The notes under the pieces are model-generated. The model worked only from the letters and a program-made list of their open reading frames with translations, did no database searches and was not told where the DNA came from. 64,000 nt of DNA, from positions 310,001 through 374,000 of the forward strand of contig JADFDI010000004.1 in NCBI GenBank assembly GCA_018262985.1. The letters run 5' to 3'. This DNA comes from Spirochaetota bacterium. GTDB taxonomy: Bacteria > Spirochaetota > Spirochaetia > Treponematales > UBA12059. A program made the position numbers and the translations under genes. Shown piece by piece: positions 16,133 through 47,692 of this stretch (within the stretch, counting starts at the first letter, position 1; each line of letters starts with the position of its first letter).

Positions 16133-17250
16133 CTTTGATTGCCGATTCTAGCGCCGAAAGCCCCGGCAAGTAAACCGGTTCCGGCGAGCGACGCATAAAG
16201 ATCGCGATACGCGGCCCACATCCGTTCGGCGGAAAACCGCGCTTCGAATCTGGCGCGCGCCGCCGCGCCGGCGCGGAGGCGTCCGGCGGGATCGTCGAAC
16301 CATGACCGCAGGGCCCGGGCGGCGTCTTTGACCGAATTGGCCACCACCGCGCCCACCTCTCCGTCGACGGCCTCGGGTATTCCGCCGACCGCCGACGCCA
16401 CGACCGGTTTACCGCAAGAGAGCGCCTCCAGGATCGACATGGGCAACCCCTCGTAGTCCGAGAACAGCACGAAGGCGTCGCACAGGTTCGCGTAGTCGCC
16501 CGCTTCGGGCAGCTCTCCGAGCAGGACCACGTTCGGAGGCAGGGCTCGCGGCACGGCGGAAGGCGGATCGCCGATCCAGAAGAACGCCGTGGCGTCCGGA
16601 TCGAAGGCCGAGGCCGTCTCGAGGAACAGGTCGAAGCGTTTGGGCGGCGCCAGACGGGCGATCGAGAGCACGACGAAACGGCCCTCCGACCGCGCCGCCA
16701 GCATGCGGTCGGCGGCCGCGCCGCCGGCTCGCCTCGCGAGCCGGTCGGTCGCCCCGTTGGGAATCGGGACGTGCGCGCCGGGCACGCCGGCGGCCACGAG
16801 GTTGCGCGCGTCGTACCCGGACACCGGCACGATCGCGCCGCAGCGGCGGGCCAGCAGCCGCTCCAGCGGCAAGAAGACGCGATGCGACTTCAAGATGGTG
16901 TCGAAGCCGTGGATGGTGTACACCACGCGTTTCGCGAGCCGTCCGGCCGCCACCCGACCGAGCACGCCGGCCTTCGAGGAGTGGAGGTGGATAACCTCGG
17001 GCTTCCAGGCGCGGTAGAGCGCCGCCAGTTCCAAGACGGCGAGGAAATCGTCCAGCGGGGAGATTTCCCGTCGGAGCCGCGTGAGCGGCCTTCGCTCGAC
17101 TCCCGGATCGAGCGCGTCCCACATCGGCCCCTCGGGCACCGACGCGACGGCGCACGCGTGCCCGTCCCGGACCGCGCGGTTCGCGAGCTCGACCACCACC
17201 CGCGGAGCGCCGCCCAGGTCCGCGTTCGTGACGACGTGGAGTATCCTCAC
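16129..17250 (-). CDS. GT4 family glycosyltransferase
   Basis: A 373-residue GT-B enzyme. It begins [20 protein letters not shown] (a typical GT4 N-terminus), has VIHLHSSKAGVLGRVA and YTIHGFD in the acceptor half and LSIARLAPPKRFDLFLE with FSDYEGLPMSILEALSCGKP (EX7E) in the donor half. It acts at the cytoplasmic face, adding an early sugar to the lipid-linked unit. GTG at 17250 is chosen because it starts the conserved fold and overlaps the LicD stop by GTGA. Donor and acceptor are unknown. Confidence 0.88.
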   Translation of the reverse strand: MRILHVVTNADLGGAPRVVVELANRAVRDGHACAVASVPEGPMWDALDPGVERRPLTRLRREISPLDDFLAVLELAALYRAWKPEVIHLHSSKAGVLGRVAAGRLAKRVVYTIHGFDTILKSHRVFLPLERLLARRCGAIVPVSGYDARNLVAAGVPGAHVPIPNGATDRLARRAGGAAADRMLAARSEGRFVVLSIARLAPPKRFDLFLETASAFDPDATAFFWIGDPPSAVPRALPPNVVLLGELPEAGDYANLCDAFVLFSDYEGLPMSILEALSCGKPVVASAVGGIPEAVDGEVGAVVANSVKDAARALRSWFDDPAGRLRAGAAARARFEARFSAERMWAAYRDLYASLAGTGLLAGAFGARIGNQR

Positions 17251-18173
17251 TCCCGCCCCCCGGCGGCGGCGCGCTTCTTCGCCTCGTAGTCCTCCCAGCG
17301 GAGAGCGGAAAAATGGGGATTGGGGCCGGTGATGAGGTAGCGGTTCACCGCATGGTCGACCCGCGCCGATTCCGGGGGCGGCGTCATGTAGTCCGGTCCG
17401 TACATCGTCGAGAGGTAGCGGTCCGGATCCGCCGGGCAGAGGAACTCCGCGTCCTCGAAGCGGATGCGCCCGAGGGGGAAGATCGCCTCCTCGGGCCAGG
17501 CTTCGCGCATCCACTCGAGCGGGTAGTCGTTCGCCCACACCGCCCCGCTCCGCTCCCCCCAGCGGAGGAAGGCCCGCGCGACGGGTCCGAGCCGCAGGAT
17601 GGGCCGCAGGAGCGCCTGCAGGAGCGCCCAGGCGCCGCTCCAGAGCTTGTGCTTGAGGGACCAGCCGCGCCGCGGCCAGTCGGGTTCGAGATCGTACGGC
17701 GGCAACAGGGCGAAGAGCTTCCTGAGCCGGTGTCTCCGCGCCGTCATCCTCGCCGCCGGAAAAATGTCGATCGGGATGCCCTGCGAATACGCGAAGGGGC
17801 CGCCGGGATCGTCCATGAAGCTGAAACGGTCGCGCAACTTCGCCCAGGCCACCGGATGCGCGGGGTCGGTTTCCTTCGTCTGGAGGAACACGTCGTACGG
17901 CAAGGCGCTCGGCGCCAGCTCGAGGAAGCGCCGGTAATCGGCGAGCGGCATCTTCACGTCGACGTCGTCGTCCCAGGGAATGAAGCCGCCGTGCCGCACC
18001 GCGCCGAGCAGGGTGCCCGAATCAAGCCAGTAGCGGAGCCCGGCCTCGCGGCAGATCCGGTCAAAGATCTTGAGCAGCCTGAGCATGACGAGCTGGCAGC
18101 TCCGGAGCACGGTATCGCCCTCCGGACGCCGGTCCGGAACGGCCGCGTCGAAATCCGGCGCCGCTCCACTCAT
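17247..18173 (-). CDS. licD: LicD-family phosphotransferase (first of two)
   Basis: A 308-residue protein with the LicD core: an N-terminal helix [20 protein letters not shown], then [17 protein letters not shown] and [11 protein letters not shown]. This is a nucleotidyltransferase-like fold carrying the acidic DDD metal site. LicD enzymes move phosphocholine, or related phospho-groups, from a CDP-carrier onto a glycan. The C-terminal half is lineage-specific, with [11 protein letters not shown]. It overlaps rmlA and the GT4 gene by 4 nt each. Together with the cytidylyltransferase at 45.8 kb it suggests phospho-decoration of the surface polymer. Substrate is inferred. Confidence 0.85.
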
Positions 18174-19039
18174 CCGCGCGCCGCCACGCGGGCGAGGTAG
18201 GCTCCGTACGCGGTTTTTTCGTAGCGTCGCGCCTGGGCGCGGAGCCCCGCCTCGTCGAGCCAGCCTTTGTGGAAGGCGATCTCCTCGAGGCACGCGACGT
18301 AGAGCCCCTGGCGATTCTGGATGGTCTCGATGAAATTCGCCGCCTCGAGCAGGTCGCGCGGATTCCCCGTGTCGAGCCACGCGAAGCCGCGGCCGAGCGT
18401 CTCGACCGAGAGCCGTCCCGCTTCGAGGTAGGCATTGTTCACGCTCGTGATCTCGATCTCGCCACGCGCCGACGGCTTCACCCCGGCGGCGACGCGAACC
18501 ACCTCGTTGTCGTAGAAGTAGAGGCCCGGCACCGCGTAGTTGGATTTCGGCGCCGCGGGCTTCTCCTCGATGGAAAGCGCCTTGCCGCCCGGCCCGATCT
18601 CGACGACGCCGTAGGCGCGCGGGTCTTCCACATAATAACCGAATATGGTGGCGCCCTCGGTCCGGCCCGCGGCTCGCTCCAGCACGGCGCTGAAGCCCTG
18701 TCCGTAGAAAATGTTGTCGCCGAGCACCAGCGCCACGGGGTCCTTGCCGATGAAATCACGTCCCACGATGAAGGCGTCGGCGAGCCCCCGCGGACTTTCC
18801 TGCACCGCGTACGAAACCTCGAGCCCGATCGCGCGTCCGTCGCCGAGCAGCTCGCGGAAGCCCCCGATGTCCCGAGGCGACGAGATGACGAGGATCTCGC
18901 GGATGCCCGCCAGCATCAGGGTCGACAGCGGGTAGTAGATCATGGGCTTGTCGTACACCGGTAGCATCTGCTTCGACACCGCCACCGTCGCGGGGAACAG
19001 GCGCGTCGCCGTTCCGCCGGCGAGAATTATGCCTTTCAT
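18170..19039 (-). CDS. rmlA: Glucose-1-phosphate thymidylyltransferase (first copy)
   Basis: A 290-residue RmlA. It starts [18 protein letters not shown] with [31 protein letters not shown] and [19 protein letters not shown]. It makes dTDP-glucose from glucose-1-phosphate and dTTP, the first step to dTDP-L-rhamnose and other dTDP-deoxysugars. ATG at 19039 has GGGAG 8 nt upstream; the in-frame ATGs further up lack one. The G-T-x-T-R loop (GTATRL) differs slightly from the usual GSGTRL found in the second copy at 62.3 kb. It is coupled to licD by ATGA. Confidence 0.92.
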
Positions 19040-19096: not shown

Positions 19097-20317
19097 TCAG
19101 GATCGCTCCATCAGGAAATCCGCGACGCGCGCGCCGGCTTCGCCGCGATGGCTCCACGCCTCGTCGCGCGCTTCCGCGATGGCCGCCGAGACCGTCGCAT
19201 CGCATCGGACCGAGGCGATCAGATCGGCTATTCGCGGGAAGTCGTCGTCGTGGAGCTCCCGCCCGATCCGCTCGACCGTCCGGAATTTCCACGGCCGTCC
19301 TCCGACGTCGCTCGCGTCGTAGGGACGCGGATCGAAATCCCGGACGGCGTACAGCACGGGACGACCGAACAGGAACGCGAAGTCGAAGATGATTCCGGAA
19401 AAGTCCGAGATCATGACGTCCGCCCGCGAGAGGGACCGCAGGTTCTCCCTGTCGAAATCCCACCATACGTTGGGGTAAGGCTCGAGCGACGCCCGCAGCC
19501 CGTCGAGCAGCGGCGCTTCCGATATCGTCGATTGGGGATGCGGACGCACGATGACCCCGACTCCGCTCCGGGCAAGCGGCTCCAGCAGCCTCGTTCCATG
19601 CCGCGCGAGGAGGCCGCTCGGTCCCCACGAGGGCGAAACCAGGACGGTCGTACCGGCGCGCGGCTCCGAACGCGAAGCGGCGAGCTCCGACGCGTAAACG
19701 TCGAGGTAGGTCGAGCCGACCGCGCGCAGCTCCTTGGCGGGCAGGCCGCGCTTGGCTTCGAGCTCCCGGATGGCCTGCGCCTGGTACTCGCCGGACAACA
19801 GGACCGAATCGAAATAGTCGAGTCCGAAAAGCCGGTACGACGTGGCGTCGTCCACGGCGTGCAGGATGTGCGCGTAATGCCCGACCCCTCGCGAGCGCTT
19901 GAACTGGTAAACGTCGAGTCCCGGCGTGGTGGTAAGGCATACCTGGGCCTCGAGCACGCGCATTCGAGCCCACGCGGCGTTTCCGCTTCCGATATACGAG
20001 GCCTTGAGCTTCGAGTAACCCGCGGTCAGACCCGGGTCGGACTCCTCCATCGAAAGGTAGCGCGCTTCGACGCCCCTCCGTTCGAGTTCCTCGACCACCG
20101 GCTTGAAGACGTTCCAGTATCGGGCGCCTTCCGAATGCAGGACTATCCGGGCGCGTTCCGCGCCCGTGACCCGTACGGAAACGGAGGGCGAGCGGGCGAA
20201 GCGCCCCTTCAGCCACACCCAGAAATGCTTGGCGAAGAAGTATACGGTCGTCGCCAATCCGACGGCGATGGAAAACAGGGCGCTGCCCGTGCCCGGGTCG
20301 ACGTAGAGCGGATTCAT
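19097..20317 (-). CDS. CDP-glycerol:polyglycerophosphate glycerophosphotransferase family (TagF/TagB-like)
   Basis: A 406-residue protein. An N-terminal membrane-associated helix (SALFSIAVGLATTVYFFAKH, 12-31) precedes a GT-B-like body. HPQSTI and VMISDFSGIIFDFAFLFGRP are the Glyphos_transf family marks, with the conserved acid site in SDFSGIIFDF. In Gram-positives such enzymes build wall teichoic acids from CDP-glycerol or CDP-ribitol; in Gram-negatives relatives build capsule polyol-phosphate polymers. The start overlaps the stop of the YidC-phosphatase fusion by ATGA. This supports a glycerol- or polyol-phosphate-containing polymer. Confidence 0.85.
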   Translation of the reverse strand: MNPLYVDPGTGSALFSIAVGLATTVYFFAKHFWVWLKGRFARSPSVSVRVTGAERARIVLHSEGARYWNVFKPVVEELERRGVEARYLSMEESDPGLTAGYSKLKASYIGSGNAAWARMRVLEAQVCLTTTPGLDVYQFKRSRGVGHYAHILHAVDDATSYRLFGLDYFDSVLLSGEYQAQAIRELEAKRGLPAKELRAVGSTYLDVYASELAASRSEPRAGTTVLVSPSWGPSGLLARHGTRLLEPLARSGVGVIVRPHPQSTISEAPLLDGLRASLEPYPNVWWDFDRENLRSLSRADVMISDFSGIIFDFAFLFGRPVLYAVRDFDPRPYDASDVGGRPWKFRTVERIGRELHDDDFPRIADLIASVRCDATVSAAIAEARDEAWSHRGEAGARVADFLMERS

Positions 20318-23004
20318 CGCGCGTAGTCCCAGTTCGCCTCGACGAAAATATCGTCCTTCACGACGATCAGGTTTTCGGGGCCGAAATCGAAGATATTCCG
20401 TTTCTGGTCGGACGGATCGTACAGGGGCTTGTCGACGACCGTCACGTTCTCGCCAGGGGCCAGCGTCCGGAACGGCCGTCCCGTGAACGGGTTCGCGGCG
20501 CGTCCGATCGACGCCGTCGCGATGGCCGGGGTGTCCGCGTTGGTCCGGAACGAACGGTCGACGGTGAAATCGGAATCCGAGCCGAAATCCTTGACCATGA
20601 GCAGCGGATTGAAACCGGGAGCGCTGGTCGGATCGCGCTCGAAACCGGCGAACTCCGGCAGCGTAAGGTCCGCCCCGTGGTCGGCCACGACGACGATCCG
20701 GGTGTTGTCGTACACGCCTTCGGCCCGGAGCTTGTCGAGGAAGCGCCCGATCATGCGGAGCGACGCGGCGTTCACCCGATAGGTCCGCTCGGTGAAGTCG
20801 TCGGCGAAGCGCGGCGCGTCGGGTCGCCGCGGGTTCCTCGAGGGCACCCAGCCATCGGCGTCGAGGACCGCCGAGTCGTGCGCCGTGTCGTTGACCATGA
20901 GCGCGAACGAGTCAGCCCCGTCGTCGACCGCGACCAGCTCGGGCAGGTAGTCGAGCGCAGCGTACTTGTCGATGAAATCCGCGTACTCGTCCGGCGCGTA
21001 TCGCGAGTCCCACCATTTCCCTTGATCGTAGATGCCGTAGCGGAGCGGCGTCGGGGCCAGCTTGAGGAGGGAGAAGCGGATCAGGCACCTTTCGACGCGG
21101 GCCGTCGGATCGACGGCCATGTCGTGCTCCTCCAGCCAACGCTGGGTGTGGCGGCCCGTCAGGTTGAAGGCGCTGACTCCGGAATACTGCCGGAATATCG
21201 TATTGTCGGGCACCCAGCTGTAATTGGCCCAGGAAGCGTCGGTGACGACGCTGCGCCATCCCGCCTCGGCGAAAAACCGCGGCATGACCGCCAGCGCCTC
21301 GTTGTGCTTCGACACGAGCGCTTCGTCGGAGCGGGCGTTGATGGCTTCCGGCGTGTACTCGTAGCCTCCGTAAAGGGGTGGGGCGCCCGCGAGCGTGTGC
21401 GGATTGAACGAGAGCGTGTTCGGATACCAGGTGAAGCCGCGGTATTTTTCGGCCAGGACCGGGTCGTCCTCCATGGCGTGGCTCACGAAGGCTCCGATCC
21501 CGCGGTCGAGCATGATGACGAGGACGTTCCGCCCTTTCCTCGTAAGCGTGTACGCGGGTTCGATTTCGCCGGCGCTCGACTCGAACCTGTCCGACGAGCG
21601 GATCTCGCGCAACTCCGCGAGGCCTGTCGATATGGCGTAGGCCTTCGCGCCCGTGGTCGCCGCCAGCCCGACGAGGCACAGGGCCGCGACCGCCGACACG
21701 AGGCGCGGTTTCCGCAAGCGGATCAGCGCCACGACCGCGGCCGCGGCGCCGAGCAGCGCCGCCAGGTTCGCGGCGCTCATCGCCTTCGTTTCGCGGAGCA
21801 CGCCGGCGTTCTGGAAAAGCAGCTGGGGGGAAATCGCCCCGTAGCTCCCGCCGAACGCGAACACGTTCACGAAGGCCCCGGCGGCCAGGACCGCGAACGC
21901 CGCGGCGAGGCCGGCGCGGGCCTTCGCTCCGACCAGTGCGTAGAGCAAGGCAGGCCAGAGGAGGAACAGGCCCGCCGATTCAGCGAAAGCGCGGCCGATG
22001 AAGTCGGCGGGCCCGCGCGTCGCGCCCGCGAAGGAGAATTCCTGCGGGGAGCTGCCTATCAGGGCCGAAGGCACCGCGAGGCCCGCCAAGGCCGTCAGGG
22101 CGAGCGCGGACAGGATGAAGACGCCGAAGGATTCCCTGGCGCTCCGGAATCCCGGCGCGATGATCCGGTCGAGCAGACGGCGGCCCAGCGCCGCGAGCAG
22201 CGGCGCCGCGAGCACGAGGCCCGCGAGCGCGACGACGACGAGCCGCTTGCGGGCGGTGGTGTCGAGGACGAACAAGGCCGCGCCGACTGCCCCCGCCGAG
22301 AGCATCGCCATGACCGCCCAGAACGCGACGAGCGGGCGCTTCAGCCGGTAGAAGACGTTCTTGGCGAGCGAGAACAGGTTGTTCAGCGTCCAGTACAGCA
22401 CCAGGCCCGACGGGGACATGTACAGCAGCGCCAGGAAGATCGCGGCCATGCCGTAGAGCTGGACTTTCTCGCGGACCGGGAGACCGCGCGCGTACACCGC
22501 GGACGCGGCCAGGTTGATCAGGGTCATGACGATCGGCAGGAGGTTGACCGCGACGCTGCCGAAGCTCACAAGCCCGTCCGGCTTCGAAAGATCGCACAGG
22601 AACCAGAAACCGCGACCGGACAGCTCCGGCAGCGACGAAAGGAACGAGTACGCCGCGATGAAGAACGGCACCTGCAGGAACAACCCGAAGCTGCTCCGGA
22701 GCGCGTAGATCGGGTGGTAGTGGTTCTGCCGGTAGTAGGTCGACAGGATCATCAAGCGCTCGTCGCCCCTGAACACCGCCTTGATGTCGTCGACCTTGGG
22801 CTGGAGCCGCTTCCTCGTCTCGCGCTCCAGCGCCTGGAGCCGTTCGGCACGCGCGTACAGCGGCAAGGTCAGGACGTTCACGGCCAAGCTGACGCCCGCG
22901 ATGGCAAGTCCGGTGCTGTGCGTCACTCGCGAGAACAGCAGGTAGACCAGCTCGATGATCCCTTCGATCGGAAAGATGACGAGGTTCTGGAATAGATCAC
23001 CCAC
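20314..23004 (-). CDS. YidC/Oxa1-like domain fused to alkaline-phosphatase-superfamily (sulfatase/LtaS-like) domain
   Basis: An 896-residue membrane protein of unusual architecture. Residues 1-222 are YidC/Oxa1-like: LTLPLY (45-50), LQPKVDDIKAVFRGDERLM (67-85), LFLQVPFFIAAYSFLSSL and PSGLVLYWTLNNLFSL (198-213). The groove arginine of insertases is Asn43 here. About six more helices follow to residue 455. Residues 488-896 are an alkaline-phosphatase-superfamily domain: VIMLD with Asp500, HTLAG with candidate nucleophile Thr537, His709 and ADHGAD with Asp775-His776. LTA synthases and phosphoglycerol or phosphoethanolamine transferases share this fold. I infer a periplasmic phospho-group transferase on a YidC-type scaffold. 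It overlaps both neighbours. Confidence 0.8.
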   Translation of the reverse strand: MGDLFQNLVIFPIEGIIELVYLLFSRVTHSTGLAIAGVSLAVNVLTLPLYARAERLQALERETRKRLQPKVDDIKAVFRGDERLMILSTYYRQNHYHPIYALRSSFGLFLQVPFFIAAYSFLSSLPELSGRGFWFLCDLSKPDGLVSFGSVAVNLLPIVMTLINLAASAVYARGLPVREKVQLYGMAAIFLALLYMSPSGLVLYWTLNNLFSLAKNVFYRLKRPLVAFWAVMAMLSAGAVGAALFVLDTTARKRLVVVALAGLVLAAPLLAALGRRLLDRIIAPGFRSARESFGVFILSALALTALAGLAVPSALIGSSPQEFSFAGATRGPADFIGRAFAESAGLFLLWPALLYALVGAKARAGLAAAFAVLAAGAFVNVFAFGGSYGAISPQLLFQNAGVLRETKAMSAANLAALLGAAAAVVALIRLRKPRLVSAVAALCLVGLAATTGAKAYAISTGLAELREIRSSDRFESSAGEIEPAYTLTRKGRNVLVIMLDRGIGAFVSHAMEDDPVLAEKYRGFTWYPNTLSFNPHTLAGAPPLYGGYEYTPEAINARSDEALVSKHNEALAVMPRFFAEAGWRSVVTDASWANYSWVPDNTIFRQYSGVSAFNLTGRHTQRWLEEHDMAVDPTARVERCLIRFSLLKLAPTPLRYGIYDQGKWWDSRYAPDEYADFIDKYAALDYLPELVAVDDGADSFALMVNDTAHDSAVLDADGWVPSRNPRRPDAPRFADDFTERTYRVNAASLRMIGRFLDKLRAEGVYDNTRIVVVADHGADLTLPEFAGFERDPTSAPGFNPLLMVKDFGSDSDFTVDRSFRTNADTPAIATASIGRAANPFTGRPFRTLAPGENVTVVDKPLYDPSDQKRNIFDFGPENLIVVKDDIFVEANWDYAR

Positions 23005-23851
23005 GGGCTCGACTCCGGTTGGCGAGGACTCTCGAAATGCGATTGACCAACGATTTCGTCCGGAACCGTCTGGCCACGAACCGGAAGCCGATATCGTACG
23101 CGCGCGCGATCGGTCCAGGAGCGCGAAGAACGCGCCCGCGACGGAGCAGGTACATCTCCCTGATGCCGAGGGCGTGGAAGGCGACGGGTCGAGCCGATAC
23201 CGGTCTATCGATGACGTTTCCGATACCGTCGAGATAGGGGTTGCCGGGATACCGGTACGGAGGACATGAGTAGAAGCCGTCGGCGAACGTTACCGCGACG
23301 CCGCGCTCCCGCTTCGCGAGCCGCGCCATCGCGACGTCGCACGCGCCCGCGAGCTCGGGATGCTCGGCCGGCCAGCCGCCGATGATCGCGGGAATCGCGG
23401 GAGCGAGCGCCTCGACCAAGGCGCCCGAGAGCGCGAAGCCGGGCCCGCCGGCCGGAAAGATCAGGCGTTCGCCGTCGATCGCCGTCTGGCCGCAATGCCC
23501 GCCGATCAAGAGCTCCATTCCCGGGTCGAATCCGGCAAGCAGCGCGCGGAGATTGTCGGCGTACACGTAGGCATCGCACCCGGTCAGGAAATACCACGAG
23601 GCGCCCGGAAAGCGCTTTCGCAATTCCAGGAGACCGAGGAACTGTTTCTCGTGGGCCGAGGCGTAATCCTCGCCCACATTCGGCCCGAGGGAGACCATCC
23701 GCAGCTCCGGATCGGATTTCCAGCCGCCGATGAGCAGCGCGTTCGGGAAATCGCGGAGCCAGGTCTCCTGCACCGACAAGGCCCGTTCGCGCAGGTTGAG
23801 GGCCGACGTGAACACGCCGACGGCGATATCCTCGATCGAAAGCTCCTTCAA
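22997..23851 (-). CDS. Fringe/GT31-like glycosyltransferase
   Basis: A protein of about 284 residues with a GT-A layout like Fringe/beta-1,3-galactosyltransferases. It has VGVFTSALNLRERALSVQET at the N-terminus, YFLTGCDAYVYADNL (in place of the usual DDDT metal site), FPAGGPGFALSGALVEALAP (the Gly-rich acceptor loop) and a basic C-terminal tail. Start is uncertain: TTG at 23851 overlaps the LicD stop (TTGA) but the GGGGGAG site is only 2 nt away; GTG at residue 13 is an alternative. It overlaps the YidC fusion by 8 nt. It probably adds a hexose to the glycan. Confidence 0.72.
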   Translation of the reverse strand: MKELSIEDIAVGVFTSALNLRERALSVQETWLRDFPNALLIGGWKSDPELRMVSLGPNVGEDYASAHEKQFLGLLELRKRFPGASWYFLTGCDAYVYADNLRALLAGFDPGMELLIGGHCGQTAIDGERLIFPAGGPGFALSGALVEALAPAIPAIIGGWPAEHPELAGACDVAMARLAKRERGVAVTFADGFYSCPPYRYPGNPYLDGIGNVIDRPVSARPVAFHALGIREMYLLRRGRVLRAPGPIARAYDIGFRFVARRFRTKSLVNRISRVLANRSRARG

Positions 23852-24738
23852 TTCTCCCCCGCCTTTCCGGAGGGGCGCTTCTCCCACTCCAAGCCGCTCC
23901 AGTGCGGATTCGGTCCGATCGGGTAGATGGCACCCACCGCGTGCTCGCTTTTCCGTCGTTCCTCGGGCGGGGGTTTCATGTAGTCGCCGAAGTAATCGGA
24001 GAGGTAGCGGTGCGGATCCGCGGGGCCGCGAAAATCTGCGTCCTCGAAGCGGATATCCTTGAGAGGGAACACCACCTCGTCGGGGAAGCGGTTCCGCCAC
24101 CGGATCGGCGGCTCGTACGCCCAGGCGCTCGCTCCCTTCCCGAACCAGGCGGCGACCGCGCGTCCGACAGGGCCGATCCTCGTCACGGCGATGAAGGCGA
24201 ACTGCGCCGCGGCGATCAGCGCGCGCTTCAAGTTGCTCTTGAGCGGAAGGGATTTTTCCGGGAGTTCCGGGCGCTTCGAGAGCGGCGGCAAGAGCGAATA
24301 GAAACCTCTGAAGGCGTGCTGGCGTTCCGTCTCCTTCACCGCGGGGAAGACGTCGATGAATATCGCCTGCGAATACGGGTAGGGACCGGTTTCCTCGACA
24401 AGGTGGCTGTAGCGGTCGCGGATCTTGACCCAGGGGCAGGAAAACCCGGGATCCGTCTCCGGCGTCTGGAAGAACATGTCGAAGGGAAGCTCGGCCGCCG
24501 CCAATGCGACGAAGCGGTCGTAGTCCTCCTTCGGCATGAGGACGTCCACGTCGTCGTCCCAGGGGATGAAGCCTCCGTGACGCACCGCGCCGAGCAGGGT
24601 GCCGGCGTCGAGCCAATAGCGGAGCCCGTTCCGTTCGCATATGACGTGGAAGGCTTTGAGGAGGCGCAGCATGACGAGCTGCGCCTGCCTGAGCGGAGTG
24701 TCGCCCCGGAGCCGATCTTCGGGTAGGTCCTCAAGCAT
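23848..24738 (-). CDS. licD: LicD-family phosphotransferase (second of two)
   Basis: A 296-residue LicD protein with [37 protein letters not shown] and [11 protein letters not shown], then YSQAIFIDVFP. It is plainly a paralogue of the gene at 17.2 kb; even the end motif IGPNPHWSGL matches GPNPHFSAL there. Two LicDs in one locus usually mean two acceptor sugars or two phospho-substituents. It overlaps the Fringe-like gene by 4 nt and the GT2 gene by 8 nt. Activity and donor are inferred from the family and from the CMP-transferase at 45.8 kb. Confidence 0.85.
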   Translation of the reverse strand: MLEDLPEDRLRGDTPLRQAQLVMLRLLKAFHVICERNGLRYWLDAGTLLGAVRHGGFIPWDDDVDVLMPKEDYDRFVALAAAELPFDMFFQTPETDPGFSCPWVKIRDRYSHLVEETGPYPYSQAIFIDVFPAVKETERQHAFRGFYSLLPPLSKRPELPEKSLPLKSNLKRALIAAAQFAFIAVTRIGPVGRAVAAWFGKGASAWAYEPPIRWRNRFPDEVVFPLKDIRFEDADFRGPADPHRYLSDYFGDYMKPPPEERRKSEHAVGAIYPIGPNPHWSGLEWEKRPSGKAGEN

Positions 24739-25549: not shown

Positions 25550-26427
25550 ATGGTGATCCTTTCCCAGGACTCCGGCACGACATCGCCGAAGCGGTACGAG
25601 TAGTAGCGGTCGCGGTCCTCGATCTCGCGGCGGTTCCAGACCGCGGGAGCGATGACGCGCTTCGCGGGCGACGGATCGAGCCAGGCGCCCCACCAGCTGA
25701 ACGAGGAATTCGCCACGACGTGGTGATCGCAGGCCGACATCATGGCCATGTCCTGCCAGCTCAAGGCGCCGCGGTTCCAGTCCACGAAGGTGGCCGGCGT
25801 CGACCCGAGGTCGAGCGCGTTCCGGCAATATTCGAGGTCGTCGGAAAACACGAGGAACGAAGCGGCGCCGGCGGCGCGCATCGACTCGGCCGCCCGGCGG
25901 TAATAGCCGGGCGTGCAGATATCGAGGTTCGGGTGCTCGAGGTAATCGCCGCGCCGGACGTGCACGCTGGCGACCGGGCGACGGACGGATTCGAGAAGCC
26001 TGCGGTTGCGGTCGGAAAGCGGCGGCTTGAAGGCGAACTCGCTTCTCAGCGCCTCTTCGATTCCCGCGAAGTACTTTTCGCTCTGCCAGTATCCTTCGAA
26101 GTAGCGGTCGCCCGTCAAGGAAAGGATCTCCGGCTGCCACCCGAATTTCCGGTCGATGAAGTGGGTGCCCTTGGTGAAGTACTTCCGCCGGAAGCGTCCG
26201 AGCGCGCCCCGGGGCCGCGTGGAAAGGCGGTCGACGTCCCGGGCGTCCGCGAGCGGCAACGCCACCGGGAACAGGATGTCGAGCTCGAAGCCGTTGTGCG
26301 CCGGGTCGTCGCCGAACGCCGACGCGTCGATGAACACCTCGTCGCCCGTCGCCTTCTCGAGCGCGCGCGCGAAGGCGTACTGGAACATCTGGTTCCCGAG
26401 CCCGCCGTGTACCTTGACGATCTTCAC
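25546..26427 (-). CDS. GT11 alpha-1,2-fucosyltransferase-like protein (first)
   Basis: A 293-residue GT11 member. It starts IVKVHGGLGNQMFQYAFARA, the family hallmark, with SVHVRRGDYL (the HxRRxD donor-binding motif) and VVANSSFSWWGAWL near the C-terminus. GT11 enzymes move L-fucose, or another 6-deoxyhexose, from a GDP-sugar to the 2-position of a hexose. gmd and fcl for GDP-fucose are in the same locus. GTG at 26427 is chosen because it overlaps the upstream stop (GTGA) and starts the conserved fold. Confidence 0.9.
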   Translation of the reverse strand: MKIVKVHGGLGNQMFQYAFARALEKATGDEVFIDASAFGDDPAHNGFELDILFPVALPLADARDVDRLSTRPRGALGRFRRKYFTKGTHFIDRKFGWQPEILSLTGDRYFEGYWQSEKYFAGIEEALRSEFAFKPPLSDRNRRLLESVRRPVASVHVRRGDYLEHPNLDICTPGYYRRAAESMRAAGAASFLVFSDDLEYCRNALDLGSTPATFVDWNRGALSWQDMAMMSACDHHVVANSSFSWWGAWLDPSPAKRVIAPAVWNRREIEDRDRYYSYRFGDVVPESWERITI

Positions 26428-27266
26428 GGCTTGCTCTCTATCGCATGCTTCCAATAATCGATGAATAGCGCTTCTGCAGAGAATCCAGTTCGGTGGGTAT
26501 CGTACCAATCATCGAGTTTCGCTTCGTCGAACGATCCTAGCTCATCCCACGAATCTACCGCGAGCATCGGAATGCCGAGAGCGACGAAATGATCGCTCCA
26601 GGCGGATTTCTTGACGATCGGCACCGTGCCGAGATAGAGCGCTTCCCAGGTGCGATGGCAGTCGAAGCCATTGCCGGGGGGTGAAAGCGTAAACTTGCAG
26701 GAAGCCATCATAGTTTGGAATTCTTCGACGCCGATCCTTTTCTTGTTGCCCACTCCGAGTGGATGCGTGGATGCGGCGGCAAGCGCGGGCTCGCGCTCCG
26801 CCCGGTTCGTGGCCACATTGAAGGAGTAGAAGATCCGAGTACGCTTCTCGGTCACGACTCTCTTGATGCGCTCGATCCGCTCGACGTTTCCCGAATTGCC
26901 GTAGTACCGATTCTCCAGTCCGATCGGCAATGGCGAGACGCGCGGATCTTTAAAAAGAATGTTCTGGCCATACCAACGACGAAGCGAGGAAGGCAACAGC
27001 TGACGAATTCCATCGGGGAAGTTGATGTCGCTGTTTCCCGAGACCAGGACGAATTCCCGTCCTGCCCTCTTCCCTTCTGCGCGAAGAAACTTTTCGACAT
27101 GGTCGCCTTCGCAGAACACGACATCCGCGCCCGCGCGGCTGAACAAGGGACGCTTCCCTTCCACGCGTCGACGGATCAGGGCTCGAATGCCATCTCCGGA
27201 TACGTATGGCGCGCTCGAGCGGCGAAAGATGTAGAATTCCCTGCAGAGCCTTGTGTATGCGCTCAT
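26424..27266 (-). CDS. Exostosin-family glycosyltransferase-like protein (first)
   Basis: A 280-residue protein. FTLSPPGNGFDCHRTWEALY followed by LGTVPIVKKSAWSD is the conserved C-terminal block of exostosin-like (GT47-type) proteins. The N-terminal half has VVFCEGDHVEKF and VSGNSDINFPDG. Bacterial members sit in capsule and O-antigen loci but most have no proven substrate; transfer of a UDP-sugar is likely. The base composition is a little lower in GC than the flanking rml and wzm genes. It overlaps both neighbours by 4 nt. Confidence 0.75.
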   Translation of the reverse strand: MSAYTRLCREFYIFRRSSAPYVSGDGIRALIRRRVEGKRPLFSRAGADVVFCEGDHVEKFLRAEGKRAGREFVLVSGNSDINFPDGIRQLLPSSLRRWYGQNILFKDPRVSPLPIGLENRYYGNSGNVERIERIKRVVTEKRTRIFYSFNVATNRAEREPALAAASTHPLGVGNKKRIGVEEFQTMMASCKFTLSPPGNGFDCHRTWEALYLGTVPIVKKSAWSDHFVALGIPMLAVDSWDELGSFDEAKLDDWYDTHRTGFSAEALFIDYWKHAIESKP

Positions 27267-28213
27267 CTTCCTTCGACGCTCCGATCGGACCTGAATGCGT
27301 GCAAGGCCTTGGAATGTATGTGCAGATTGAAAATCGGAAATCGGCGCCCACCGAAATCGGCGATCGGAACAAGGCGGCCTTCCGGGTCATGCTCCCAGCG
27401 GACGGGCATCTCGGCGGGCGAGTACATCGCCGTCTCGTTGACGAAGCCCGGACCGAGCGCCGCGTCGTTCCGCGGATCCACGCCGCCGAGGTACTGTCCG
27501 AACGCCGCCGCGTCGAACACGCCGCCGAACGCGTCGTAGTCGCGGTCGAGCAGGCCCAGGTCCTTCGTGACCAGCCCGGATGTCGACCGCAGCTCGGTCC
27601 GGCCATCCTTGTACCATGCGGGAACGACCGGCAGGAAGGAGCAACGATCTTTCCGCCGACGGGCGTAGCGCGAGAAGGCGTTCATGTCGTTCATCTTGCG
27701 GATCAGGTAGCGGAGATTATACGTACGGCAAAAATCACCGAGCGCTTCCGCGTCACGGACGTAGACGACCGAGGGAATGCAGCGCACCGTCGAATCGGAC
27801 GGCAGGCTGAGCCCGTTCGAGGTGGCGCGGAAAACGCCTTCCAGCTTCGAAACGTCGAAGTACACCATGTTGTCGTATTCGAAATGCAGGACCGGACCGA
27901 GCCCTTTCGCGGCCATCAGATCTTCCAGCACGAAGAAACGCTCGATGGCGAAGCGCCAGAAACCGCCGCGGAACGTGGAGTTCATCAGATTCCACCGGGA
28001 AAAGAACCGGTGGTGCCTCGTAGGCTTGAGTTCAGCGGCCGACACGCTTCGGCAGTCCGGATGGCGCCGGCACAGTTCATCGACCTCAGGAAACCGCGCG
28101 TCGGTCACGAGCCAGAGGGGATTGCCTCGGTTGAACAGGTAGAACTGGTCCACGAAATCCGCGATGCACGCCGGAAATTCCTTACCGCGGTGGATTATTA
28201 CGGAATCGGTCAT
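27263..28213 (-). CDS. Unknown protein, possibly a GT-A-type glycosyltransferase
   Basis: A 316-residue soluble protein. It has a Rossmann-like N-terminus (DSVIIHRGKEFPACIADFVD, then PLWLVTDARF) and VLHFEYDNMVYFDVSKL in the middle, which could hold a metal-binding acidic site. PIFNLHIHSKALHAF is near the end. I do not recognise a family with certainty. Its tight packing between two glycosyltransferase genes (4-nt overlaps on both sides) argues for a sugar transferase. It contains no signal peptide or membrane helix. Confidence 0.55.
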   Translation of the reverse strand: MTDSVIIHRGKEFPACIADFVDQFYLFNRGNPLWLVTDARFPEVDELCRRHPDCRSVSAAELKPTRHHRFFSRWNLMNSTFRGGFWRFAIERFFVLEDLMAAKGLGPVLHFEYDNMVYFDVSKLEGVFRATSNGLSLPSDSTVRCIPSVVYVRDAEALGDFCRTYNLRYLIRKMNDMNAFSRYARRRKDRCSFLPVVPAWYKDGRTELRSTSGLVTKDLGLLDRDYDAFGGVFDAAAFGQYLGGVDPRNDAALGPGFVNETAMYSPAEMPVRWEHDPEGRLVPIADFGGRRFPIFNLHIHSKALHAFRSDRSVEGR

Positions 28214-29022
28214 CGATTGTCCTTTTTGCTTCGTTTTTCACCCAGGCGGTCGCCCGCGGGCGCGCGGATCCATTCGGGCGGAACAAGTCCGTCCAATTCC
28301 ACGGAACCGTCGTTCGTCCACTTGTCGGGGCAGACCGTGACGCCGCCTCGCGTCGCCCCGAGGAACGCGCCCCACCACGAGAACGTCGAATTGGCGATTA
28401 CATGGTTACCGCACGTCCGCATGACCCAAAGGTCGAAGCCGGGATCTCCGTCGAATGATTCATCCCGAACGAAGCGATATTCTCGCTCCGCGTTTTGAAG
28501 CACCCGAGCAGCGTAGTCCCGATCGTCCGTTAGCACGAGGAACTCAGCGTCTGGAACCCTCTCCGAGACCAAGGCCAACGAGCGTCGGTAATATTCAGGA
28601 CCGCAGACCGACCCGTAGACGCCTTCTGTCCCTTCCGTCAGGTAATCCCCTCCGCGAACGTGCACCGAGACCGCGTTCGCGCGTCCGGCCGCATCGGCCC
28701 AAGGCGATCGGGCATAGTGCGCCTCTCTCCGAAAATCGAAATGCCCGCTTTCGCGAGCGATTTCTGCGTATTCGCGTTTTTGGTGGAATCCGACCTCGTA
28801 TCCGCGTTCGACGTACCGGGCCCAGACCTTAGTCAGGGCCAAAGCGACCGGGTTGCCGAGCTCGAGTATTGACGGATCCCCGAGTTCGAACACGTCCGCG
28901 ATGCAGCCCGGACTCGGAGAAAGGACAAACCGAACCCGCTCGCCGTGCGCGCGCAACCACAGTCCGTACGAATACTGGAACAGCTGGTTGCCGAGCCCGG
29001 CGAAGAGTTTGACGTAACGCAT
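28210..29022 (-). CDS. GT11 alpha-1,2-fucosyltransferase-like protein (second)
   Basis: A 270-residue GT11 protein: YVKLFAGLGNQLFQYSYGLW at the N-terminus, AVSVHVRGGDYLTEGTEG (HVRGGDY in place of HxRRxD) and HVIANSTFSWWGAFL. It is divergent from the GT11 at 25.5 kb, so the two probably fucosylate different acceptors. The start sits one base after the DUF6492-like gene's stop. The C-terminal tail is basic (GEKRSKKDNR). Confidence 0.88.
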   Translation of the reverse strand: MRYVKLFAGLGNQLFQYSYGLWLRAHGERVRFVLSPSPGCIADVFELGDPSILELGNPVALALTKVWARYVERGYEVGFHQKREYAEIARESGHFDFRREAHYARSPWADAAGRANAVSVHVRGGDYLTEGTEGVYGSVCGPEYYRRSLALVSERVPDAEFLVLTDDRDYAARVLQNAEREYRFVRDESFDGDPGFDLWVMRTCGNHVIANSTFSWWGAFLGATRGGVTVCPDKWTNDGSVELDGLVPPEWIRAPAGDRLGEKRSKKDNR

Positions 29023-29937
29023 TCAGTACACATTCCAGGAGTGGAACGATATGGTGTTGTACAGTCGAGAGTATCTCGCCTTCAAATTATCGAGCCGTGG
29101 AAGGTGCTTTCTCCCGAGGCTTTTGTTCGCCCAGTACCTGACGACTATCCTCTCCGGATGCCGCTCGGCCACGTACTGGCCGTAATTGTCGTAATCGGAA
29201 ATCGAGGACATTTCCGAGGCGTCCACTGCGCCTACCACGGCCCGGTACCAAGGCATGGAATGACGTTTCTCCAGGTACTCCATGAGCTCACTCATGATTT
29301 CGGTGTCTATAAGGCTGTGATGACTCGTGAATGATATCGAAGAACGCGGTGTGATGCCGAAGAGGCGTTCGAAAGCTCGAAAATACGGCCGGTGGAACTC
29401 GTCGCAGAAGTCGAATACCATCCTGCCTTCGAGCTCGAAAGCCTGGGGCCGGATGAAAACGGTGTCGGAATCGATCACAAGATAGTGTCGGTTGGAGCAG
29501 AACCTGCCGCCGCTCCACTTGAGAAGCTGCTGGTACGCCCACCCCGCGCGGCTCTTTCCCTCGTGCACGTAGTCGATGTCGCGGGGGGATATCTCGACGA
29601 GGCCGGCCTCGTCGATCATCGTGCATCCTTTCTCCGCGGCGATCGCCTTGATGATCGGGCTTTCCTTCGGCGAGACGAGATAGACCCCTCCGATAGGATG
29701 GGCTATATGCTCGCGCGCGGAATCGATCACCAAGGGGAGTGTTCCCGCGTCCTTGTCTATAACTGGAATGACAATGTCGATTGGGAGAGAACTACGTTGC
29801 GGCGACCGGGGGCTGATGACCGGGATTCCCAGTTCTGACGAAAAGGCCCGCTGGCGCCGTCGCGCCTGGAGTCGATACCATGCGTAATCGAGATCGAGCG
29901 CCTTCAGCGGTGTCTTGATGATCGAGGGCATCCTCAT
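29023..29937 (-). CDS. DUF6492-like putative glycosyltransferase
   Basis: A 304-residue protein. PIDIVIPVIDKDAGTLPLVI gives a GT-A-like opening and YLVIDSDTVFIRPQAF provides a DSD metal-type motif. SFTSHHSLIDTEIM and VVGAVDASEMSSISDYDNYG follow, as I recall for DUF6492 proteins. These occur in polysaccharide loci and are assumed to be sugar transferases. ATG at 29937 is chosen because it makes an ATGA overlap with the reductase gene upstream. Substrate unknown. Confidence 0.65.
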   Translation of the reverse strand: MRMPSIIKTPLKALDLDYAWYRLQARRRQRAFSSELGIPVISPRSPQRSSLPIDIVIPVIDKDAGTLPLVIDSAREHIAHPIGGVYLVSPKESPIIKAIAAEKGCTMIDEAGLVEISPRDIDYVHEGKSRAGWAYQQLLKWSGGRFCSNRHYLVIDSDTVFIRPQAFELEGRMVFDFCDEFHRPYFRAFERLFGITPRSSISFTSHHSLIDTEIMSELMEYLEKRHSMPWYRAVVGAVDASEMSSISDYDNYGQYVAERHPERIVVRYWANKSLGRKHLPRLDNLKARYSRLYNTISFHSWNVY

Positions 29938-30875
29938 CGATCGCGTCCTTCCATAAAACTGCGGTAAATATCCCTCAGGCTTTCTTCCAGCCCGATCTCT
30001 GGTTTCCAACCCGTGCGGATGCGGATCTTGTCGTAGGATCCCACAATGTCATGATTGTCGTTGGGTCTGATGCGCCCCTGATCGATCACCTCCCGATAGT
30101 CTTTTTCCGCGATACGGCCGATCATGCGGATAATCTCGGCGATGCTGTGCCCGGCGCCTCCGCACACGTTATAGACTTCTCCGGACTCGCCGTGTTTGAG
30201 CAGAAGATAATAGGCGCGCGCCACGTCCCTCACGTCCAGGAAATCCCTGACGATGGACGTGTCGCCCACCAGAAGCTCGAGCGGCCCGGCCCCCCTCCAA
30301 TCCGCGAACTGCTTGACCAGCGAAGGTATGGCGAAGATCGGCTCCTGCCCGACGCCTACATGATTGAACGAGCGGGTTATGACGACATCGAGGTCGTACG
30401 ACCGTGCGTAGAGCCGCGAAAGCTGCTCTTGCGCCACGCGTGCTACGGCGTATGGGCTGATCGGATTCAGCGGGTCCCCTTCCCCGAGCGGAAGGTCGGA
30501 CAGCTCGACGGGACCGTATTCCTCGGAAGAACCCACTGAAAGCACGCGCACAGGCATTCCGAGCGCGCGCACGGCTTCCATAAGGTTGAGGAAGATGCTC
30601 GTGTTGTTCGCGAAGCTCTCTCGCGGACGTTCCCAACTCTTGGCCACGCTGCTGAACGAGGCGAGATGGACAATGTAATCGGGACCGAACGGCTTGATTT
30701 CTCTTTCGAGGGCCGAGGTATCCAACAAATTCACTTCCGCGAACCGGTGTTTGTAACGGTATAGGGGTTGCCTCATGTCGAGTCCGAGAAATGAAGCTCC
30801 CGGATCTACCGAGGATGCAAAATCGATGAAATGCCGAGCTACGAAACCGGAGACACCGGTGATCAAGTATTTCAA
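29934..30875 (-). CDS. NAD(P)-dependent GDP-6-deoxyhexose reductase/epimerase-like protein (Rmd-like) with YxxxR site
   Basis: A 313-residue extended SDR. GVSGFVARHFIDF is the nucleotide loop, IVHLASFSSVAKSWE and VGSSEEYGPVE follow, and the end motif IRPNDNHDIVGSYDKIR resembles Gmd and Rmd proteins that act on GDP-4-keto-6-deoxymannose. The catalytic motif reads SPYAVARVAQE, with Arg where SDRs have Lys. It may make GDP-D-rhamnose, or another GDP-6-deoxyhexose, from the Gmd product. It is followed on its upstream side by an 81-nt AT-rich gap before the foreign-looking exostosin gene. Confidence 0.75.
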   Translation of the reverse strand: MKYLITGVSGFVARHFIDFASSVDPGASFLGLDMRQPLYRYKHRFAEVNLLDTSALEREIKPFGPDYIVHLASFSSVAKSWERPRESFANNTSIFLNLMEAVRALGMPVRVLSVGSSEEYGPVELSDLPLGEGDPLNPISPYAVARVAQEQLSRLYARSYDLDVVITRSFNHVGVGQEPIFAIPSLVKQFADWRGAGPLELLVGDTSIVRDFLDVRDVARAYYLLLKHGESGEVYNVCGGAGHSIAEIIRMIGRIAEKDYREVIDQGRIRPNDNHDIVGSYDKIRIRTGWKPEIGLEESLRDIYRSFMEGRDR

Positions 30876-30956
30876 GTTTCTGGTTCTCCCGTACCCATAA
30901 GGCAGGCTGATGCCGGTGTGGTTTATTTAAACTAAAGACATCACAATAATTCACGG

Positions 30957-33447: not shown

Positions 33448-33566
33448 GACAGGATATCTCCTCAAGGCAGGATCGCCGGCATCTGAATTCCACGAAACCG
33501 AACCGGAACCGCGGGTATCTTGATTTAGAGGCCAGGTCCGCACTAAGCCTCTATCGGCCGATACTT

Positions 33567-34895: not shown

Positions 34896-34910
34896 GCTTC
34901 TCCCCTCCGT

Positions 34911-37857: not shown

Positions 37858-37869
37858 CCCGAGTTTCCT

Positions 37870-44765: not shown

Positions 44766-45851
44766 CTATTCCTTGAAATCGTGGATCTGGTAGCCGGACT
44801 GCTTCATGTGCGCGTCGCGCTCGGCCTCGGCCAGGTCGTGGGTCATCATGTCCTTGACGAGCTCTTCCAGCGTGTGGCTCGGAACCCAGCCGAGCTTCTC
44901 GCGGGCCTTGGTCGGGTCGCCGAGCAGCAGCTCCACCTCGGTGGGCCGGAAGTAGCGCGGGTCGACCTCGACGAGGACCTTGCCGGTCTTCGCGTCGTGG
45001 CCCTTCTCGTGGACGCCGGAACCCTTCCACTCGATCTCGATGCCCGCCTCGCGGAAGGCCATGACGACGAAGTCGCGGATGGTAGTGGTGCGGCCGGTGG
45101 CCAGCACGTAGTCGTCGGGCTTGTCCTGCTGGAGGATGCGCCACATGCCTTCGACGTAGTCCTTGGCGTGGCCCCAGTCGCGCTTCGAATCCATGTTGCC
45201 GAGGTAGAGCCGCTCCTCGAGGCCGTGCCGGATGCGGGCGGCGGCGCGCGTGATCTTGCGGGTCACGAAGGTCTCGCCGCGCACGGGCGATTCGTGGTTG
45301 AAGAGGATGCCGTTGCAGGCGTAGATGCCGTAGGCTTCGCGGTAGTTCACCGTGATCCAGTAGGCGTAGAGCTTGGCCACCGCGTAGGGGCTCCGCGGGT
45401 AGAAGGGCGTGGTCTCCTTCTGCGGCGTCTCCTGCACGAGCCCGTAGAGCTCCGAGGTCGACGCCTGGTAGATGCGCGTCTTTTTCTCCAGCTTGAGTAT
45501 GCGGATGGCCTCGAGGAGGCGGAGCGTGCCGATGCCGTCCGCGTTGGCGGTGTACTCGGGTTCGTCGAAACTGACCTTGACGTGGCTCTGCGCCGCCAGG
45601 TTGTAGATCTCGTCGGGCTGGACTTCCTGGATGATGCGGATCAGGTTGCTCGAGTCCGTCATGTCGCCGTAATGCAGGTGGAAGCGCGAGCCCTTGGCGT
45701 GCGGGTCGCGGTAGAGGTGGTCGATGCGCTGGGTGTTGAAGCTCGAGGCGCGCCGCTTGATGCCGTGCACCTCGTAGCCTTTATCGAGGAGCAGCTCCGC
45801 GAGGTACGAACCGTCCTGTCCCGTGATGCCGGTTATCAGCGCCTTTTTCAT
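44766..45851 (-). CDS. gmd: GDP-mannose 4,6-dehydratase
   Basis: A 361-residue SDR with [70 protein letters not shown] and catalytic [20 protein letters not shown]. It turns GDP-mannose into GDP-4-keto-6-deoxymannose. The starting GDP-mannose must come from genes outside the window, since no manB or manC is seen. It overlaps the cytidylyltransferase-aminotransferase gene by ATGA and precedes fcl. Confidence 0.97.
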
Positions 45852-47692
45852 GCAGTCTCTCCCTTGGTTCCCGCCCCGGCGAGGCCGAGGACCTCGCGGA
45901 AGCTCTTGATGAAGTAATCGTCGTCCTCGCGGTCGCGCACCGCGAGGCGCACGAACTGGCCTTCCGGGAAGCCGCGCTTTCCGCTCAGATCCTTGATGAT
46001 GATGCGTTTCTCGTCCAGGAGGCGCTCGGCGAGCGAGCGGGCCGACACGCCGTTCCGCAGGCGGCACATCAGGTAGTTCGCCGCGGAGGGGTACAGGTCG
46101 AGCGCGCCGGTATCCGCGAGCAGGGCGGCGAAGCGCGCCCGCTCGGCCGCGATCAGGTCGCACGCGTGCCGGTAGTCCGCCTTGTACTTGTCGACCACCT
46201 GGAGGAAGAACTCGCCGAACGAGTTGACGTTCCACACGGGCAGGTCGCGGCGGATCTTCTCGACCAGCTCGAGGTCGCCGCTCGCGAGGACGCCGAGCCG
46301 GAAGCCCGGCACGCCGTAGCTCTTCGAGACGCTCTTGATGACGACGAGCCGCGGATTGTCGCGCAGGTACGCCTCGTCCAGGAGCGTGAAGCGCGCGTCG
46401 CGGTCGGCGAAGTCGACGAACGACTCGTCGACGACCAGCCGCTTGCCGCGCCGGCCCGCCTCGGCGACGAGCCTCAGGACCTCGGCTTCCGGCATGAAGC
46501 GGCCGGACGGGTTGTCGGGATTCACGAGCACGGCGGCGTCCGCCCCCGCGTCGAGGGCGGCGAGGATGTTGTCGGCCCCGTAGGCGAAATCGCGCCCGCC
46601 CGTCGGTATCTCGACGAAGCGATCCGCTCCGACGCGCGCGGGGTACTCGTTGAAGGCGGGAATGGTGCCCGCCACCCGACCCGGCAGGAAGCGGAAGAGC
46701 CGGTCGATCAGCTCGGCGGCGCCGTTCCCCACGACGATCTGCGACTCCGCGGTGCCGAACGCCTTGGCCGCGAGCTGGCCCTGCACGGCCGCGCCCGAAG
46801 GATAGTGCGACAGGAGGTCGCCGAAGCTTGACTTGATCTCGTGCGAAAGCCGTTCGGTCGGGAAGTACGGGTTCACGAGGTAGCAGTAGTCGCGCACCGC
46901 GGGAAAGCGCCAGAAGCCGCCGTAGCGCGCGTTCATGAGGTCGAGCTTCTCGGCCGCCGAGGAGAAGATCGTCTCGGCCACGCGGAGGTCGTGCGGGTCG
47001 TCGATCTCGTACCAGCGGCTGCCCTTTACGCGGTGGCCCTTGAGGTCGATGTCCTCGAGAAAGGCCAGGACTTTCAGCACCTGCTCGTAGTAGACGTTGT
47101 CGCCGAAGGCGGCCAGCCAGGCGTCCAGGAAGGGCAGGTAGTAGCGCTTCGAGAAATCCTTCGAGAATTTGTAGATGTTGACCGTCTTGTAGTAGTGGCC
47201 GATGTCGGTCCAGCGGAAATGGTCCTTGTCGATCACGCTGACTATGCTGCCGTCCTCGTCGAGCAGGGTCACCGTGCCGTCCATCCAGCTTTCGAAGCGC
47301 GAGACGACGGCGAGGTTCGGCGACGGATCGGCGAGCACCTCGCGCAACAGGGACGGTTCGAAGATCAGGTCGCTCTCGAGGAGCAGGACGTCGTCGTCGG
47401 CCATCCGTTCGCGGGCCAGCCAGAGGGAGTAGATGTTGTTGGTCTTGTCGTAGACGTCGTTCGCGACGTACTCGATGCGCAGGCCCGGATAGCGGTCGGC
47501 GATGTGCCCGATCAGCCGCTCCTTCCGGTAGCCCACCACGATGGTGACGTCGCGGACGCCCGCCGCCTCGATCGCTTCGAGCGCGTGGTCCACCAGGGCC
47601 TTGCCGTTCACCTGGACCATGCACTTGGTGCCGTCGCGCGTATACGCGCCGAGCCGCTTGCCCATGCCCGCCGCGAGTATGATCGCCCTCAT
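45848..47692 (-). CDS. Bifunctional cytidylyltransferase (LicC/PntC-like) - class I aminotransferase fusion
   Basis: A 614-residue two-domain protein. Residues 1-245 are a nucleotidyltransferase: [31 protein letters not shown] (89-93 region), LLESD (104-108) and [10 protein letters not shown] (227-236), as in LicC choline-phosphate and PntC aminoethylphosphonate cytidylyltransferases. Residues about 280-600 are a fold-type I PLP aminotransferase: NPDNPSG (391-397), Asp422, and SVSKSYG with Lys457 as the PLP lysine, most like HisC/CobD. Together they could make an amino-phosphonate or amino-alcohol phosphate and load it on CMP for the two LicDs. No PEP mutase gene is in the window, so the substrate is open. 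Confidence 0.85.

Follow-up and report, generated by a model that had tools for sequence, protein, structure and literature searches.

A YidC-like membrane module fused to an alkaline-phosphatase-fold domain in Spirochaetota, a candidate envelope phosphotransferase with a TagF-like partner

In this study, we analyzed a window of 64,000 nucleotides from the genome of a Spirochaetota bacterium (NCBI GenBank assembly GCA_018262985.1, contig JADFDI010000004.1, positions 310,001 to 374,000 of the forward strand; positions below are those of the window), in which one gene joins a YidC/Oxa1-like membrane module to a domain of the alkaline phosphatase (AP) superfamily. The fusion gene, at 20314-23004 of the minus strand, is a single open frame of 896 amino acids with a GTG start, and it contains neither a stop nor a frameshift. 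An earlier note, made from the letters alone, had read a YidC core and a phosphatase-type domain in one frame at these coordinates without stating the strand, and the AlphaFold2 model, Foldseek and VIA agreed with this reading, as did Pfam for the YidC core. The fusion gene stands between a TagF-like gene and a Fringe-like gene, and two LicD family genes lie nearby (Table 1).

Table 1. Positions in the window of the YidC-AP fusion gene, its predicted parts and key residues, and the genes near it.
Feature	Position	Strand	Basis or remark
YidC-like/AP-fold fusion gene, 896 aa	20314..23004	-	Open reading frame, Pfam, AlphaFold2 model; full-length homologue (locus L003) 86% identical
Residues 1-30, amphipathic helix resembling YidC EH1, without signal peptide	22915..23004	-	AlphaFold2 helix 2-28; Lys/Arg scarce
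Residues 31-222, YidC/Oxa1 core including cytoplasmic C1 hairpin	22339..22914	-	PF02096; Foldseek 6al2; identity; dN/dS
N43, groove position	22876..22878	-	Ser/Thr/Asn in 97/100 family proteins, Lys/Arg in 0
R103, almost invariant Arg inside a 3-residue insertion ahead of core helix 3	22696..22698	-	Alignment; insertion absent from canonical YidC
Residues 223-286, variable two-helix hairpin	22147..22338	-	Model and alignment; shorter in some relatives
Residues 287-472, five membrane helices preceding the AP domain (LtaS/EptA/PbgA-like layout)	21589..22146	-	AlphaFold2 model; fold match alone weak
Residues 485-896, AP-superfamily domain, predicted periplasmic	20317..21552	-	AlphaFold2, Foldseek, VIA, Lys+Arg distribution
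D500, metal-ligand position	21505..21507	-	99/100 aligned proteins, plus one X
T537, nucleophile position (Thr; sulfatases Cys/Ser)	21394..21396	-	100/100
H709, active-site His	20878..20880	-	100/100
D775-H776, metal-ligand pair	20677..20682	-	H776 100/100; D775 all but one X
TagF-like partner, 406 aa, N-terminal membrane helix with DPGTGS motif and PF04464 region	19097..20317	-	Start overlaps fusion stop by 4 nt
Fringe-like glycosyltransferase (PF02434), immediately upstream	22997..23884	-	Overlaps fusion start by 8 nt; start approximate
LicD family gene (PF04991), local neighbour	23848..24738	-	Pfam
Second LicD family gene, local neighbour	17247..18311	-	Pfam; start approximate
LicC/PntC-type cytidylyltransferase-like domain fused to CobD-like PLP (pyridoxal phosphate) domain	45848..47692	-	TIGR01140 165 bits, below cut-off

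Relatives were collected by a scan of GTDB genomes which reaches close relatives only, so the result bears on Spirochaetota and Elusimicrobiota. The scan gave 74 loci, nearly all of them in Spirochaetota and three in Elusimicrobiota, and the residue counts given here rest on about 100 homologues (100 aligned proteins). The relatives are full-length fusions, mostly 31-42% identical to the window protein, and the one in a sister genome is 86% identical. Strong matches (E<1e-60) were present in approximately 105 of the 393 genomes of the phylum that were surveyed, including distant families with versions of about 1000 residues. Where a stretch at first matched only from residues 255-280, its frame was found to encode the YidC core as well, and the domain pair was never split in the copies checked, a few frameshifted ones aside. 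Thus, the break between the domains or the loss of catalytic residues that the earlier note had named as grounds for dropping its claim was not seen, because the homologues are full-length and T537, D500, D775 and H776 are kept in essentially all 100. The AP profile was found in only 4 of 199 Elusimicrobiota genomes, and a search of a plasmid collection returned matches to canonical YidC only, with no fusion. One match labelled Dysgonamonadaceae (L029) probably belongs to a spirochaete whose contig fell into a mixed bin. Frameshifted fusion copies stand beside or instead of intact ones at L065, L069, L070 and L071, possibly as decaying tandem paralogues or assembly errors. The Brachyspira-like fusions at L084 and L087 have about 1008 residues, with some 90 more residues separating the YidC core from the five-helix part.

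The AlphaFold2 model of the fusion, with 97 homologues in the alignment, had a mean pLDDT of 90.6 and a pTM of 0.83. It shows the EH1-like helix at residues 2-28, the YidC core with the C1 hairpin at 31-219, a helix pair at 224-245 and 251-285, and a five-helix region at 289-318, 332-357, 360-383, 407-429 and 433-470. The lysine plus arginine counts of the predicted inner loops were 9.0, 2.0, 3.1, 2.9, 1.3 and 2.8, and those of the outer loops were 0-2.0. Because these residues are frequent in the inner loops and scarce in the outer ones, and the helix count agrees, the AP domain is placed outside. Relatives with a shortened 223-286 hairpin appear to drop an even number of helices, and the topology is retained. 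We regard the predicted topology and the catalytic residues as well supported by alignment and model. The mean pairwise identity was 61% in the YidC core, 39% in the AP domain and 30% in the five helices, and dN/dS between the window fusion and that of the sister genome was 0.10, 0.28 and 0.14 for the YidC, middle and AP parts, respectively. This indicates that the YidC module is the most strongly constrained part of the protein.

The YidC-like module is recognized clearly as a fold. Residues 32-219 match PF02096 (60KD_IMP) with 76.3 bits against a cut-off of 35, the profile match to 4utq has an E of 1e-9, and Foldseek aligns the model to YidC 6al2 over 216 columns (E 2.5e-5), with the five-helix core fold and the C1 hairpin present. 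The EH1 helix, the five-helix core, the C1 hairpin and the Y-W and N-N motifs are common to the fusion and the YidC/Oxa1/Alb3 insertases (E. coli YidC 4utq/6al2, B. halodurans YidC2 3wo6). In contrast to these, the fusion has no P1 domain, carries Ser, Thr or Asn in place of the groove Lys/Arg, has gained the insertion with R103, and is joined to a five-helix AP enzyme. A positive groove residue has been described as strictly conserved in YidC insertases (PMC8920935). The earlier note had called attention to N43 as a departure from the insertase Arg; the residue is indeed non-canonical, but the residue it replaces is Arg or Lys rather than Arg only, as found in eight of nine canonical YidC proteins from the same and other phyla, with Gln in one Elusimicrobial protein. 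NCBIfam TIGR03592 (yidC_oxa1_cterm) scored 74 bits and missed its curated cut-off of 84.3. As the conserved positive charge and this cut-off are both missed, we did not file the protein as a YidC insertase despite its YidC fold. R103 was lost in one Brachyspira-like copy (L087, a divergent Leu). N154, N164, N208, N209, Y204 and W205 in the membrane helices are near-invariant, and the conserved residues of the cytoplasmic C1 hairpin include F78, G80, Q93, Y96 and P98. A FastTree built from the YidC region separates the fusion domains from the canonical proteins by a long branch of modest support (0.58). The source genome also encodes a separate canonical YidC, which would free the fusion copy.

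The AP domain was assigned mainly by structure. Pfam Sulfatase (PF00884) scored 20.6 bits, under the gathering score of 25, and the Sulfatase and Phosphodiest matches are restricted to about residues 750-780, below cut-off. With VIA, residues ~490-896 gave Z of 19-21.5 to sulfatases, phosphonate monoester hydrolase and LtaS/LtaP, the top ones being choline sulfatase (21.5) and phosphonate monoester hydrolase (21.2), and LtaS (4uoo/2w5q) reached 19.8 over about 300 residues. Foldseek ranked PbgA/YejM, LtaP, EptA, MCR-1, LtaS and phosphonate monoester hydrolases for the fusion model, and also found E. coli YidC. N43, D500, T537 and D775/H776 occupy the positions that had been noted before, and H709 is an additional invariant active-site His. 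A Thr nucleophile is typical of LtaS, EptA and nucleotide phosphodiesterases, and five helices followed by an outward AP domain are the layout of LtaS. The lipoteichoic acid synthases LtaS and LtaP have the Thr nucleophile and the Asp-His metal pair in common with the fusion, which adds the N-terminal YidC module and the hairpin and is 10-15% identical to them. The phosphoethanolamine transferases EptA/MCR and PbgA/YejM are the best whole-length Foldseek matches (6xlp 3.6e-8, 5fgn 1.2e-6) and lack the YidC module. The suggestion of an LtaS-like catalytic domain thus gained ground, and the AP fold, the Thr nucleophile and the predicted topology support an LtaS/EptA-like domain facing outward.

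The general partner of the fusion is the TagF-like gene. It was present at 34 of the 38 loci having at least 3 kb on both sides of the fusion, and lay directly downstream in 36 cases, a 4-nt overlap being the commonest arrangement. Across the 393 genomes, 102 had both genes, three had the fusion alone, one had the TagF-like gene alone and 287 had neither. The unpaired genomes are incomplete: the three with the fusion only are drafts of 85-91% completeness, and the one with the TagF-like gene only is 66% complete. The pairing persists at a distance, as in G080, where the TagF-like gene is 1.3 Mb from one fusion copy. Because the two genes are jointly present or absent within families, they are very likely a functional pair. 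The TagF-like proteins carry LYIDPGTGS in the N-terminal helix, with DPGTGS invariant, and match PF04464 in their C-terminal part; they are barely covered by Pfam, have no NCBIfam match and are probably a separate transferase family.

The earlier note had also set the fusion among TagF-like, Fringe-like and LicD genes. All of these are in the window, but LicD occurs at just 3 of the 74 loci and was rejected as the defining partner. The two LicD genes of the window are the only ones in the source genome, in which a PF00884 search found no further AP-family protein that could explain the context. At the same locus, 30960-31718 (minus strand) encodes a small protein with an RXYLT1 C-terminal domain (31.9 bits against a Pfam cut-off of 27), and together with the LicD genes it resembles the human dystroglycan pairing of RXYLT1 and fukutin. 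The GC content at third codon positions of the genes across 26427-43657 is about 0.46-0.83, compared with 0.85-0.95 beyond, which suggests an imported glycosyltransferase block.

Two to four fusion copies were found at 33 loci. Between tandem copies, the parts can differ even more in conservation, with identity of up to 81% in the YidC module, as in a pair in Breznakiella (L008) with 36% in the middle part and 41% in the AP domain. We interpret this pattern as a handling module kept constant beside catalytic modules that vary; a near-constant YidC module with diverged catalytic modules is expected if one handling module serves enzymes that differ in specificity. Three- or four-gene tandem arrays, with conserved YidC and diverged AP modules, were also observed at L007, L017, L024, L035 and L046.

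Clues to the head group come from nucleotidyltransferase-PLP fusions at 33 of the 74 loci. Their types, aminoethylphosphonate (AEP) transaminase (10), CobD-like (13) and HisC-like (11), are almost mutually exclusive. CobD-like enzymes decarboxylate O-phosphothreonine, so the matching head groups would be P-aminopropanol or P-ethanolamine. The CobD-type fusion was found in 27 of the 105 genomes bearing YidC-AP and 12 of the 288 without it, and phosphoenolpyruvate (PEP) mutase in 45 of 105 and 29 of 288, respectively. At L096, PEP mutase, Ppd, PntC-AEPT, two YidC-AP fusions, the TagF-like gene and LicD stand in one run, and some spirochaetes (L096, L098) have the two-domain PntC-AEPT layout beside the fusion. 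Tde1415, the PntC-AEPT of T. denticola, has the layout of the AEP transaminase type and makes CMP-AEP (PMC6697681); it is an upstream supplier and not a relative, and the source genome has the CobD-like version. The CobD-like protein of the window (45848-47692) is apparently an undescribed counterpart of the PntC-AEPT fusion and may supply the activated head group from the same locus; it is conserved in other spirochaetes with 64% mean column identity. The HisC-like type adjoins YidC-AP genes of Treponema (L048:11797-13785, L018:12987-14954, L038:15665-17647). The recurrence of these genes suggests, from gene content, CDP- or CMP-activated aminoalkyl phosphates or phosphonates.

We give an even chance to the reading of the fusion as an LtaS/EptA-type phosphotransferase for envelope glycoconjugates that has incorporated a membrane module derived from YidC and works together with the TagF-like partner, and it probably decorates surface sugars. 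The YidC module would handle, and perhaps flip, the lipid-linked substrate of the AP domain, much as the earlier note suggested that the YidC scaffold may present a lipid or polymer. On the cytoplasmic side, the membrane-anchored TagF-like enzyme would load a lipid or glycolipid with a small head group activated by CDP or CMP; this group is probably an aminoalkyl phosphate or phosphonate. The YidC-like module, in whose polar groove the insertase charge is gone and R103 has appeared close to the cytoplasmic end, may then hold the lipid head group and let it reach the outer leaflet or hand it on. Finally, T537 of the outward-facing AP domain, with a metal held by D500, D775 and H776, would take the phosphoryl head group, presumably as a Thr-phosphoryl intermediate, and transfer it to a surface glycan. 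MprF likewise joins lipid head-group chemistry and flipping in one protein; its fold is unrelated, and its synthesis step is cytoplasmic. As a tentative and further-reaching proposal, a bacterial Oxa1-superfamily domain may have given up protein insertion and been dedicated to flipping or presenting lipid-linked aminoalkyl phosphates or phosphonates, hard-wired to the periplasmic transferase that uses them, and together with the TagF-like protein and the cytidylyltransferase-PLP fusions it would form an undescribed surface-decoration pathway of spirochaetes.

Several observations weigh against the phosphotransferase reading. The first metal ligand is Asp in the fusion but Glu in LtaS and EptA. 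The five-helix region folded alone gave weak matches to YejM and MCR-1 (VIA Z 3.8-4.3) and no confident PDB match. The co-occurrence of the fusion and the TagF-like gene has p = 8e-90, a value computed ignoring shared ancestry. Both PEP mutase and the CobD-type fusion are missing from 39 of the 105 fusion-bearing genomes, a genome-wide count of these two only. The source genome has no PEP mutase, and phosphonate (AEP) was rejected as a universal substrate; nor did a search of it for the glycerol-3-phosphate cytidylyltransferase TagD give any match over cut-off, and CDP-glycerol was rejected. Lipid handling by the YidC module has outside support, as E. coli YidC, Oxa1 and Get1 scramble lipids in vitro in proteoliposomes, and in simulation via the insertion groove (PMC10491306); such scrambling is non-specific, so it need not be the selected function.

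Other roles can be assigned to the same parts. The YidC module may move no lipid and serve instead as a platform in the membrane, where the TagF-like enzyme or a growing polymer docks beside an ordinary LtaS/EptA-type transferase. The very strong TagF-like pairing is consistent with this, and the top conservation of the YidC module, including the C1 hairpin residues listed above, fits a protein-docking surface; but the near-invariant Asn, Tyr and Trp residues in the membrane helices point to a working groove and not to a surface alone, and we consider this role possible but on balance unlikely. It is more doubtful still that the module works on as an insertase or chaperone, with this 12-helix protein, its partner or a surface protein as its dedicated client. 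The YidC core fold is complete, and E. coli YidC can do without its groove Arg as long as a polar or aromatic residue stands at 517 (PMC8920935), so the loss of the groove charge alone does not mean the loss of insertion. With the aromatic, near-invariant W205 at about the 517 place, the fusion might retain insertion. However, the groove position, from which the earlier note doubted normal insertase work, carries Lys or Arg in none of the 100 proteins but in eight of the nine canonical ones, S. mutans YidC2 needs its groove Arg despite a Trp at the 517 position (PMC8920935), a canonical YidC is present anyway, and the genomic linkage is to glycan genes and not to exported proteins.

The AP domain could instead trim envelope polymers as a hydrolase, whether a phosphodiesterase, a sulfatase or a phosphonate monoester hydrolase; the top VIA matches speak for this, with LtaS within about 2 units of them. 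Formylglycine made from Cys or Ser is the nucleophile of sulfatases and phosphonate monoester hydrolases, unlike the Thr found in all 100 proteins, and the neighbours are biosynthetic rather than catabolic, which makes a hydrolase very improbable. That the fusion comes from an assembly artefact, a frameshift or two genes that happen to adjoin in one frame is hardly conceivable given the 74 loci, the approximately 105 genomes of the phylum, the complete closed contigs and the 86% identical sister, and was rejected.

The earlier note knew of no characterized enzyme of this layout, and in the openly available papers on YidC with sulfatase, LTA (lipoteichoic acid) synthase, LicD or Treponema polysaccharide, we likewise found no description of the fusion. 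Its parts are individually of known kinds, and the combination, the near-obligate partner and the phylum-wide spread appear to be new. Many proteins annotated as YidC in spirochaetes may not be insertases. For spirochaetes decorated with phosphonates, the fusion offers candidates for the transfer step after CMP-AEP. Insertases are suspected of being lipid scramblases, with no physiological case settled, and the fusion lets this question be tested on one protein, to which it is suited because its YidC fold is separated from the housekeeping insertase, the canonical YidC being kept, and is tied to a head-group transferase. We believe that the fusion probably marks a job for the YidC fold that has not been described previously.

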